Shown piece by piece: positions 18,077 through 53,386 of a DNA stretch of 64,000 nucleotides. The notes beneath the pieces were generated by a model. The model was given only the letters and a program-made list of their open reading frames with translations, did no database searches and had not been told where the DNA came from. This stretch comes from Paenibacillus senegalimassiliensis. Its GTDB lineage: Bacteria > Bacillota > Bacilli > Paenibacillales > Paenibacillaceae. Within the stretch, counting starts at the first letter, position 1. Every line of letters begins with the position of its first letter. Position numbers and translations under genes: made by a program. The DNA lies in assembly GCF_001486585.1 (NCBI RefSeq), contig NZ_LN909046.1:248001-312000 (forward strand). Direction: 5' to 3'.

Positions 18077-19150
18077 TCAGCTATTCTCCAAAATCGTGTT
18101 CAATGTCGTACGGTCCAGACCGCGTACGAGGCGGATGAGCAACTCCTTGGCGGCTTCATAATCATCCGTATGAATGATTGACGTAGAAGTGTGGATATAG
18201 CGGGAGCATATCCCGATTACACTGGAAGGGACGCCGATGCCGCTAAGATGTACTTGTCCTGCATCCGTTCCTCCGGGTGACACGAAGTATTGGTATTTAA
18301 TCTTATGTGTATCGGCAGTGTCCTGAATATACTCTACCAGGCCGCGATGGGTAATCATGGTCGGGTCCAAAATGCGCAGCAGGGCGCCTTCACCAAGCTT
18401 CCCGAAGGAACGTTTATCTCCGGTCATGTCGTTGGCTGCACTGGCATCCAGGGCAAAGAAGATGTCTGGCTGGATCAGGTTGGCGGCGGTACGAGCCCCG
18501 CGCAGACCCACCTCTTCCTGAACATTGGCGCCGATGTAAAGCGTATTCGGCAGCTTGTCCTGATGCACAGCCTCTAGCAGTTCCAGACCCAATCCAACCC
18601 CGTAACGGTTATCCCACGCTTTGGCCATGATTTTCTTCGGATTCACCAGAGGTGTGAATTCACAAATGGGCACGATCTGTTGACCTAGGCGTACACCAGC
18701 AGCTTCGGCCTGTTCCCGGCTATCTGCGCCGATATCCAGATACATACTCTTCAGGTCGACAGGCTTGCTACGTTGCGATTCGTCTAGCAAATGTGTTGGA
18801 ATGGAGCCTACCACACCTACAATAGGGCCATTTGGGGTAATAATTTGCAGACGCTGGGCCAGTACGGCCTGGCTCCACCAACCGCCGAGGGGTTGGAAGG
18901 CAATCATCCCGTTGTCGCTAATTCCAATGGTCATGAATCCTACCTCATCAAAATGACCCGCGACCATGACTTTCGGGCCCTGATCATCTCCGCGCAGAAC
19001 GCCGAACAGTCCCCCTAGCCGATCCTGGACAAATTCCTGAGTATAGGCGGACATTTTCTCTTTGACGAGGGCACGTAGCTCTCGCTCAAATCCCGGGGCT
19101 GAGGGAAATTCGGTAAGTTGTTTGAACAACTCCCGTGTTTGATTATTCAT
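18077..19150 (-). CDS. M42 family metallo-aminopeptidase
   Basis: The 357-residue protein is a dinuclear metallopeptidase of family M42 (glutamyl or deblocking aminopeptidase, sometimes annotated as an endoglucanase). Metal-ligand and catalytic signatures are visible: AGHFDEVG near residue 66, [23 protein letters not shown] with the catalytic Glu pair, and the C-terminal [12 protein letters not shown]. It trims N-terminal residues from peptides in the cytoplasm and normally forms tetrahedral dodecamers. AAAGGAG precedes the ATG. A dispersed repeat lies directly upstream of its promoter region. There is no link with the glycan genes beyond location. Confidence 0.9.
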
Positions 19151-19167
19151 GCTCTAATTCTCCTTTT

Positions 19168-19383
19168 AGAGGATGTTCAAAAAGTCGTCTTCCCAGGACG
19201 AAGTTGTTCGAGGAGTGCATTCGACATCGAATCTTGAATTCAGCCGGGCCTAGCATATGCTTCCGTAGTATGTTTCCTTCAGAAACATTTCAGTTGCTCA
19301 CGTAGATCTGTCTACGCTCCGCTACTGACGTCCCTGGCTTCATCCAACCTTCTCGGTCCTGTAAACCCGACTTTTTGAACTCG
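19168..19383. repeat. Dispersed intergenic repeat, copy A, with terminal inverted repeats
   Basis: This 216-bp element is bounded by an exact 13-bp inverted repeat (GTTCAAAAAGTCG at 19175-19187, complement at 19368-19380). It is related along its length to the sequence at 53179-53354. A 28-bp block (19221-19248) is identical to 53230-53257, and the right end (from about 19337) is nearly identical. Inside are small hairpins: TGTTTC/GAAACA at 19271-19287 and CGTAGA/TCTACG at 19301-19316. No protein is encoded in a convincing way. It resembles a MITE or a structured intergenic repeat. The rest of the gap up to 19543 shows nothing clear. Confidence 0.8.
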
Positions 19384-19543
19384 TATTTTTACCTTAACAA
19401 TGTGAACAATAATATTAAGTATGAACTACCTCGTTTCGATTGTCCATGTCTCGGCTCATGTGAAGGTAGGCACCCTGTATATATGGACGCATATACTGTA
19501 TCAAGCAGCACTTCGCTGGGCGAGTTAAGGGAGGCAAACGATA

Positions 19544-52365: not shown

Positions 52366-53178
52366 ATGAACATCGGAATTATATCGGATCTTCATGTTGA
52401 TTTAAATGAACAGCAAGGAGATATTGCCATCGAGGAAGCGTTGTTGCAAGTTGTCCGGGAACGGGAATTGAATCAATTAATTATCGCCGGAGATATTTCC
52501 AATGACCTGCACATCAGCTTGAAGGTTCTTGAGGGGTTACGTGAGGCCAGCGGCATTCCGGTGTTGTTCGTTCCTGGCAACCATGATTATTGGAGCAAGG
52601 AGAATGGAATTACGGATACGTGGGAAATTTATCGAGCTTATCAAACCTTCTCTGGCTGCTTAAGTGAACGCTCCTATTCATTGAATGAACAATGGGCCGT
52701 CATTGGTAATACCGGCTGGTATGACTACACCATGGGAGAGCCTAAATACGGAACGGTTGATTTTGAGGAAATGAAGCTGGGCGAGCGTACGTGGCAGGAC
52801 AGTATTTATGTAAAATGGGGAAGAAGTAATGCGGATATGCATCGCTATTTCTATGAAGCGTTAGAGCAGGAGTTAATCAAGCATCAAGGCAAGCAGATTA
52901 TTTTGGTTACCCATATGCTGGGGCATCCCTTCTTCAAGGTGCCGATGCCGCATCCCCGCTGGGAATATTTCAACGCCTTCCTTGGAAGTACAGAATATAC
53001 CGATTTATATGAGAAGTATGACGTACGTTACGCCGTGATGGGGCATGTGCATTATCGGAAGCGGCAGATTCATCAGAACACGGAAATGATTTGTGCTTGC
53101 CTGGGATATCGTAGGGAATGGAGACAGGCAGTCGCCGTCGAGGAGATACGGAGCTGCCTGCAAATAATCTCTGTTTAA
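52366..53178 (+). CDS. Calcineurin-like metallophosphoesterase
   Basis: The 270-residue protein has all blocks of the dinuclear metallophosphoesterase fold: ISDLHVD, AGDIS, GNHDYW, VTHML and MGHVHY. The substrate could be a phosphodiester or phosphomonoester. It is the last gene of the HAD-RpiR-MBL-Dpp run, 23 bases after the DppF-like gene with AAGGAGAGAG before the ATG. The dispersed repeat (copy B) begins directly after its stop codon. Confidence 0.9.
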   Translation: MNIGIISDLHVDLNEQQGDIAIEEALLQVVRERELNQLIIAGDISNDLHISLKVLEGLREASGIPVLFVPGNHDYWSKENGITDTWEIYRAYQTFSGCLSERSYSLNEQWAVIGNTGWYDYTMGEPKYGTVDFEEMKLGERTWQDSIYVKWGRSNADMHRYFYEALEQELIKHQGKQIILVTHMLGHPFFKVPMPHPRWEYFNAFLGSTEYTDLYEKYDVRYAVMGHVHYRKRQIHQNTEMICACLGYRREWRQAVAVEEIRSCLQIISV

Positions 53179-53354
53179 GAGGTTGTCAAAAAGTCATCTT
53201 TTGATCACGAAGCGGCTCCGGAAGTAAACTCGACATCGAATCTTGAATTCAGCCGGGACTTCCGATGCTCACGTACCCACTACGTACGCTCCGCTTCTCA
53301 GTCCCTAGCTTCATCCAACCTTCTTGGTGCTGAAAACCTGACTTTTTGAACTCG
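53179..53354. repeat. Dispersed intergenic repeat, copy B, with terminal inverted repeats
   Basis: This 176-bp element is related to copy A at 19168-19383, in the same orientation. The ends are inverted repeats (TCAAAAAGTCA at 53186-53196, complement at 53339-53349). It shares the identical 28-bp block at 53230-53257 and the right end, but lacks about 40 bp present in copy A. At the position of the CGTAGA hairpin of copy A it has a different stem, ACGTA/TACGT at 53271-53285. It fills the gap between the convergent metallophosphoesterase and kduD genes and may act as their terminator. Confidence 0.8.
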
Positions 53355-53386
53355 CATTAAATTTCAGTCATAAATATTTATAAGAA

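Follow-up and report, generated by a model that had tools for sequence, protein, structure and literature searches.

A MITE-like family of dispersed repeats with optional hairpin modules in Paenibacillus senegalimassiliensis and its relatives

INTRODUCTION

The window analyzed here is a stretch of 64,000 nucleotides from Paenibacillus senegalimassiliensis (contig NZ_LN909046.1, positions 248,001 to 312,000). An initial annotation of this DNA pointed out two noncoding elements, 34 kb apart, and took them for members of a dispersed family, possibly MITE-like elements or structured regulatory repeats; should no further copies exist, they would be a chance local duplication. The question raised by this locus is therefore whether the two elements belong to a mobile family, to a family of folded sequences, or to both.

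RESULTS

Two copies of the repeat in the window

The two elements, called copy A and copy B, contain the same 28-nt core, as had been claimed, and their right ends are nearly identical as well (90% over the final 58 nt). The limits of both had to be corrected, from 19168-19383 to 19168-19387 for copy A and from 53179-53354 to 53178-53358 for copy B. The proposed inverted-repeat ends are intact in copy A, with the arms GTTCAAAAAGTC/GACTTTTTGAAC, and imperfect in copy B, whose left arm is one T shorter (GTCAAAAAGTC). A perfect target duplication is no longer present at the flanks of copy B. The two copies differ in length because copy A has a module of about 38 nt (module 1) and copy B is without it. 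Judging from the sequence, no transposase is encoded within the element, which is noncoding as claimed. The features are as follows.

19165-19167: target duplication of copy A, left (TTT)
19168-19387, plus strand: copy A, complete element of 220 nt carrying module 1, orientation set by the core
19168-19186, plus strand: left terminal inverted repeat of copy A, AGAGGATGTTCAAAAAGTC
19221-19248, plus strand: 28-nt core of copy A, TCGACATCGAATCTTGAATTCAGCCGGG
19251-19293, plus strand: optional module 1 of copy A, limits approximate
19296-19322, plus strand: apical hairpin of copy A
19369-19387, minus strand: right terminal inverted repeat of copy A
19388-19390: target duplication of copy A, right (TTT)
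53178-53358, plus strand: copy B, complete element of 181 nt without module
53230-53257, plus strand: 28-nt core of copy B, TCGACATCGAATCTTGAATTCAGCCGGG
53267-53294, plus strand: apical hairpin of copy B
End sequence of the repeat family: AGnGnnTGTTCAAAAAGTC

The start of an M42-peptidase frame (18077-19150) is 17 bp downstream of copy A (window 19150-19168), and copy A adjoins the likely ribosome-binding site of this frame. Copy B is placed between a metallophosphoesterase gene and a short-chain dehydrogenase gene. Rfam gave no match in the window at the gathering score, and the copies in six copy-bearing loci were unmatched at E<=5.

Copy number and anatomy of the family

The genome of P. 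senegalimassiliensis comprises 5,059,704 bases in 15 contigs. The core was found in it at 76 places with up to three mismatches, compared with 0 for the reversed-pattern control, and exact GTTCAAAAAGTC was found 161 times, compared with 3 for its control. These numbers ruled out a chance local duplication. A covariance model, R1, was made from 34 short copies and gave at least 123 matches at E<=1, at least 90 of them at E 1.2e-11 or better; these counts are lower bounds because 150 of 1,933 candidates were scored. Among the weaker matches, three represent strong ones read on the opposite strand. The repeat is dispersed at about 100 copies in this genome, which bears out the supposed spread. 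Some copies are in tandem, e.g., at C15:380385/380569/380752 and C3:62529/62713.

The ends of the family are 19-bp inverted repeats of the form AG.G..TGTTCAAAAAGTC (AGAGGTTGTTCAAAAAGTC / AGTGCGTGTTCAAAAAGTC). The commonest form, seen in the 57 copies extracted first, measures 168 nt from the G of GTTCAAAAAGTC to the C of GACTTTTTGAAC, or 182 nt when the 7 further nt at each end are counted. The length between the arms ranges from 168 to 270 nt, and in the longer forms (205-206, 230-241, and 266-270 nt) modules occupy up to three fixed positions. The interior consists of a conserved 168-nt rod and up to three optional hairpin modules. All three modules have a version of ATGCTTCCG.AGT beside a short hairpin, the third as the reverse complement (by eye), and they therefore appear to be related. 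Both ends are retained in shortened forms, which measure 37 to about 110 nt; several of them have a common CGAC junction, and they may be deletions in place. The idea that the 60-nt forms prove the ends to be sufficient for movement was withdrawn for this reason.

Insertion signature

The left and right flanks of 90 copies were compared position by position. One direct-repeat diagonal was found, with three strongly matching positions (z of 4.8, 6.9, and 6.9). As for the target-site duplications that the initial annotation had proposed to check, a perfect duplication of 3 bp was present at 36 of the 90 copies (shuffled mean, 6; maximum, 14; 2,000 shuffles) and at 28 of 44 in a set from other genera and families (shuffles, 5.6; maximum, 13). 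The flanks prefer CT on the left and AG on the right, and the element itself starts with AG and finishes with CT. The results showed that the insertion target is CT/NNN/AG-like and that about 3 bp of it are duplicated. A first reading by eye of the CACTTATAG-like flanks as duplications of 8-9 bp was abandoned since the position-wise test gave three strong positions, the CT and AG being target or end bases. TNNNA, a longer duplication, fits two copies from relatives (L352 and L367) and may be an alternative. Three copies of the own genome (L033, L037, and L053) are flanked by direct repeats of 10-16 bp, which stand where the terminal 7 nt of the element would be.

Empty and occupied sites in related genomes

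A sister genome (G223) was searched with the flanks of 11 own copies, the repeat itself being left out. The site of copy A is empty there: the own sequence reads ...CTCCTTTT/AGAGG...TATT/TTTACC... (slashes mark the limits of the element) and the sister sequence reads ...CTCCTTTTACC... The M42-peptidase gene leader therefore differs between the species. The site of L049 is also empty, that of L040 is empty except for about 10 extra bases, and those of L033 and L038 are likewise without a full copy. Decayed pieces were found at the sites of L008 and L046. The site of L037 holds one copy in the own genome and a tandem pair in the opposite orientation in the sister genome (L336). For L013, L029, and L045, no region could be compared across both flanks. 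Copy B has counterparts in the same position in G223 (region identity, 84%) and G281 (72%) and is thus common to three species; the counterparts in these two genomes carry module 1, which copy B lacks.

The empty sites together with the same-place copies indicate that copies come and go and that some persist for long, and the counterparts of copy B indicate that modules differ between copies at one locus. Because of the inverted ends, the duplications, and the empty sites, we regard the family as mobile and MITE-like. Dispersal, tandem copies, and the lack of a protein agree with this reading, which is well supported.

Gene context

Approximate gene calling allowed 84 of the 90 copies to be placed, the other 6 being unplaceable, and none was within a gene. 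Among the placed copies, 31 and 27 (two orientations) are between codirected genes, 21 are between divergent genes, and 5 are between convergent genes. This distribution bears on a reading in which the repeat is a dedicated cis-regulatory RNA or bidirectional terminator that spread mainly through its use by host genes. Such a role would fit the base of the rod, which has an A-tract and a U-tract (AAAAAGTC...GACTTTTT), and the presence of copy B at one place in three species. Against it, the neighboring genes are in all arrangements, with only 5/84 convergent and without strand preference, the copies come and go between sister species, and a terminator scan gave one weak site in copy A (shuffles, 0.4) and none in copy B. 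We consider this reading very improbable, and a terminator as the sole role was rejected because the gene arrangements and the weak scans speak against it.

Distribution

At E<=1e-5, with up to nine candidates scored per genome, R1 had matches in 130 of the 295 Paenibacillaceae genomes, belonging to 12 of 19 genera. An exact 23-nt pattern of the core matched at least 110 stretches; among the 80 titles listed for it, the hosts were Paenibacillus, Cohnella, Fontibacillus, and one bin labeled Sphingobacterium, which comes from a sample series (Fux382) that is also the source of a Paenibacillus bin. Three plasmid records, all from Paenibacillus, had the repeat, and the phage records searched had none.

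At E<=1e-4, R1 matched 36 of 299 genomes of the class: 20 of the own family, 6 of one other family (best E values from 1.1e-29 to 3.5e-27), and 10 with weaker matches. Nine of these ten were reexamined and gave, e.g., 72 matches in G526 and 22 in G469. Diverged relatives of the repeat are present in other families of Bacilli. In the copies inspected from G526, G469, G442, G544, G452, and G316, the interiors differ, the apical hairpin is kept, and the ends are mostly the same (AGAGG.TGTTCAAAAAG...CTTTTTGAACA.GC.CT); the outer stem in G469 is GTCCGGAAAG...CTTTCCGGAC. The sequences from G365 and G368 have the hairpin in common and not the ends. Two 104-nt matches in G365 (L355 and L362), which lie close to the end of a contig with about 300 bases between them, have the hairpin without the usual ends and may be another type of repeat.

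Fold and covariation

In an alignment of 34 copies, 32 of them distinct (A2), 95.3% of the cells were paired, compared with 92.7% in shuffles, and 34 cells were altered on both sides, compared with 11.3 in shuffles (0/500 shuffles reached this value). No excess was found for the pairs with a both-sided change (6 versus 4.5; 63/500 shuffles) or for further pair types (17 versus 20.5 in shuffles), and both results count against a selected fold. A second set consisted of 136 short copies from many genera, taken from 193 full-length elements with the 57 of other lengths left out; alignment A4 was left out since it mixed sense and antisense matches. The four top covarying column pairs of the 136 copies were all stem pairs (89-120, 20-163, 100-108, and 30-153), pair 89-120 being GC in 68, TA in 59, AT in 6, and CG in 1. 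At 33 stem pairs, chosen partly from the covariation result, 14 of 45 rare alleles were Watson-Crick with their own partner, compared with about 0.5 expected if the partner were unchanged, and 22 of the 45 were mismatches. Paired columns were not depleted of rare alleles (0.68 per column, compared with 0.47 in unpaired columns). Given these mismatches and the richer paired columns, the stems are not simply frozen. Because related copies have changes in common and are not independent, no figure in this paragraph amounts to a clean probability.

These results bear on a purely selfish MITE with an unselected fold, in which the palindrome and the covariation would be by-products of a few master copies and shared ancestry. 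Such an element would account for the absence of copies within called genes, the unbiased orientation (31 versus 27), the many shortened copies, and the rare alleles in paired columns. It fits poorly with compensatory changes deep inside the element, where up to four Watson-Crick types occur per position (89-120), and with an apical hairpin retained between families with otherwise different interiors. We regard a purely selfish element as unlikely. Judged from the aligned copies, the folded shape appears to be maintained by compensatory changes, and the fold is likely under selection. Both terms of the initial alternative, MITE-like or structured, were thus right in part, the second by virtue of stem covariation across copies and genera.

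In silico, the minus strand folded more stably than the plus strand in 12/12 representatives, with that of G316 scarcely above shuffles. Single-sided changes gave A.C on the plus strand (G.U on the minus strand) in 16 pairs, compared with 3 pairs with G.U on the plus strand. Two GGA/GA internal loops flank the apical hairpin of copy B when the minus strand is folded. Two helices of R1 (33-37/132-136 and 41-46/65-70) favor G.U on the plus strand, against a minus-strand reading. The R1 helices at 33-37/134-138 and 42-47/66-71 are retained in the model and no longer believed.

Which transposase?

The own genome has three matches to PF01609, namely, a 452-amino-acid transposase in two copies and one IS1182-family transposase. 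The element of the latter (NCBIfam NF033551) ends in AGGGGCTGTCCGAAAAGTC, which is like the left end of the repeat at 15/19 positions. Among 30 loci of IS1182 relatives from 148 genomes, both ends were readable in 19; a direct 3-bp repeat was found in 0/19 and an inverted one in 6/19. The insertion site is of another kind, which speaks against an IS1182-derived MITE. Neither the PF01609 proteins of the own genome nor the IS1182 relatives of the 148 genomes were accepted as the autonomous partner, since none has the ends of the repeat. Apart from the IS1182-like elements with their own ends, no transposase flanked by repeat-like ends was present in the fetched loci (end pairs 500-3500 bp apart). 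The initial annotation had raised the possibility of a transposase sharing these ends, and none came to light in these searches, which covered part of the genomes.

The likeness to IS1182 invites a reading by structure-dependent DNA transposition, in which an IS1182-like transposase would read stem-loops or cruciforms and move the element, and the covariation of the stems would stem from folded DNA, not RNA, being the substrate. IS1272, called an IS1182 relative, is reported in the available text to replace inverted-repeat targets without duplications (PMC5678879), and the outer stem of the G469 copies covaries as a whole. The absence of direct repeats in the IS1182-like copies, in contrast, is unlike the repeat, and the strand asymmetry is not expected for a symmetric cruciform. 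This reading seems distinctly unlikely to us.

The apical hairpin beyond the family

The motif GCTCACGTA-N3..14-TACGCTCCG was found in 23 viral contigs (L394-L416), e.g., at L409:2084-2107, in a viral collection so large that such a pattern could give chance hits. TCCGGT immediately precedes the motif in 18 of the 23, and in 14 the motif is behind what is seemingly a common capsid-gene end; a major head protein was confirmed in all three tested of these 14 (L407, L409, and L412). In these contigs, the hairpin is part of a long rod and resembles a structured spacer conserved among prophages. It reads on the plus strand relative to the capsid-like gene, which counts against the minus-strand reading.

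The L409 stretch matched 34 plasmid records from ten named genera, e.g., Sphingobium, Shinella, and Agrobacterium, and one not shown. Alphaproteobacteria are shown for two of the 34, and we take the other genera to be Alphaproteobacteria as well. No match to this stretch was found in phage records or, for a 46-nt piece, in Escherichia coli genomes. Two loci on Allorhizobium and Ensifer plasmids (L459 and L460) have palindromic repeats that are intergenic and contain this apical hairpin; these repeats may be the known RIME. The recurrence of the hairpin could reflect common descent or a shared binding site. We tentatively entertain, while thinking it doubtful, that the minus-strand hairpin GCGGAGCGUAC-loop-GUACGUGAGC with its GGA/GA loops could be a nucleic-acid module for a factor conserved in several phyla, used from Bacilli to Alphaproteobacteria by mobile repeats whose spread would need the fold (as RNA or single-stranded DNA) and parked behind prophage capsid genes.

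DISCUSSION

In its observed and its proposed parts taken together, the explanation that we favor is probably right: the family is a nonautonomous MITE-like mobile element. A DDE-type transposase would recognize the ends of the repeat in trans. The junction between element and target may resemble the target itself, which would explain the tandem copies. Selection would act on a folded single strand, most likely an RNA reading opposite to the core orientation, for one of two reasons: binding or processing of the RNA could render insertions in untranslated regions (UTRs) tolerable or useful, or the folded strand could be the form used by the transposition machinery. Resident copies would acquire and lose modules, with gene conversion between copies, or deletion, as the probable mechanism.

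Literature searches, with most subscription papers outside their scope, did not find the Paenibacillaceae repeat described. As a high-copy and apparently undescribed family of a widespread soil genus, it has consequences for annotation and assembly and for how 5' and 3' regions are interpreted. Features that are usually apart are combined here, namely, transposon-like insertion, a compensatory internal fold, and interchangeable modules at fixed sites. The family makes it testable whether the folds of bacterial MITEs are selected and at which step, and the shared apical hairpin is a concrete bait for a factor that reads it.

Several known systems share part of this pattern. REP elements of RAYT (Y1) transposases are palindromes of 20-40 bp without target duplication; the present repeat, at 168 nt or more and with direct duplications, is not a REP element. 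The IS1182 family has similar 19-bp ends (15/19 positions); unlike the repeat, it encodes a transposase, and none of its 19 readable copies has the direct 3-bp repeat. RIME and rhizobial palindromic repeats are intergenic and, as far as the available text goes, come from the same bacterial group as the plasmid matches to the apical hairpin (PMC2573895).

Closest in kind, on the accessible parts of the sources, are bcr1-3, NEMIS, ERIC, and RUP. Correia/NEMIS, ERIC, and RUP are shorter than 200 bp and have inverted-repeat ends, duplications, and stem-loop transcripts (PMC2229807). NEMIS occurs with and without an internal segment according to the same excerpt (PMC2229807), like the optional modules here. 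These and similar elements are described there as having mostly TA ends and other hosts, and the present ends and core differ from theirs by inspection. The bcr1-bcr3 repeats of the Bacillus cereus group are, in the text available, intergenic and MITE-similar and often located in UTRs, bcr1 measuring about 147-167 bp (PMC3446304, PMC2267715). They resemble the present family as intergenic repeats of Bacilli; going by those partial descriptions, the present family is set apart by its 3-bp duplications, its interchangeable hairpin modules, and its relatives in several families.
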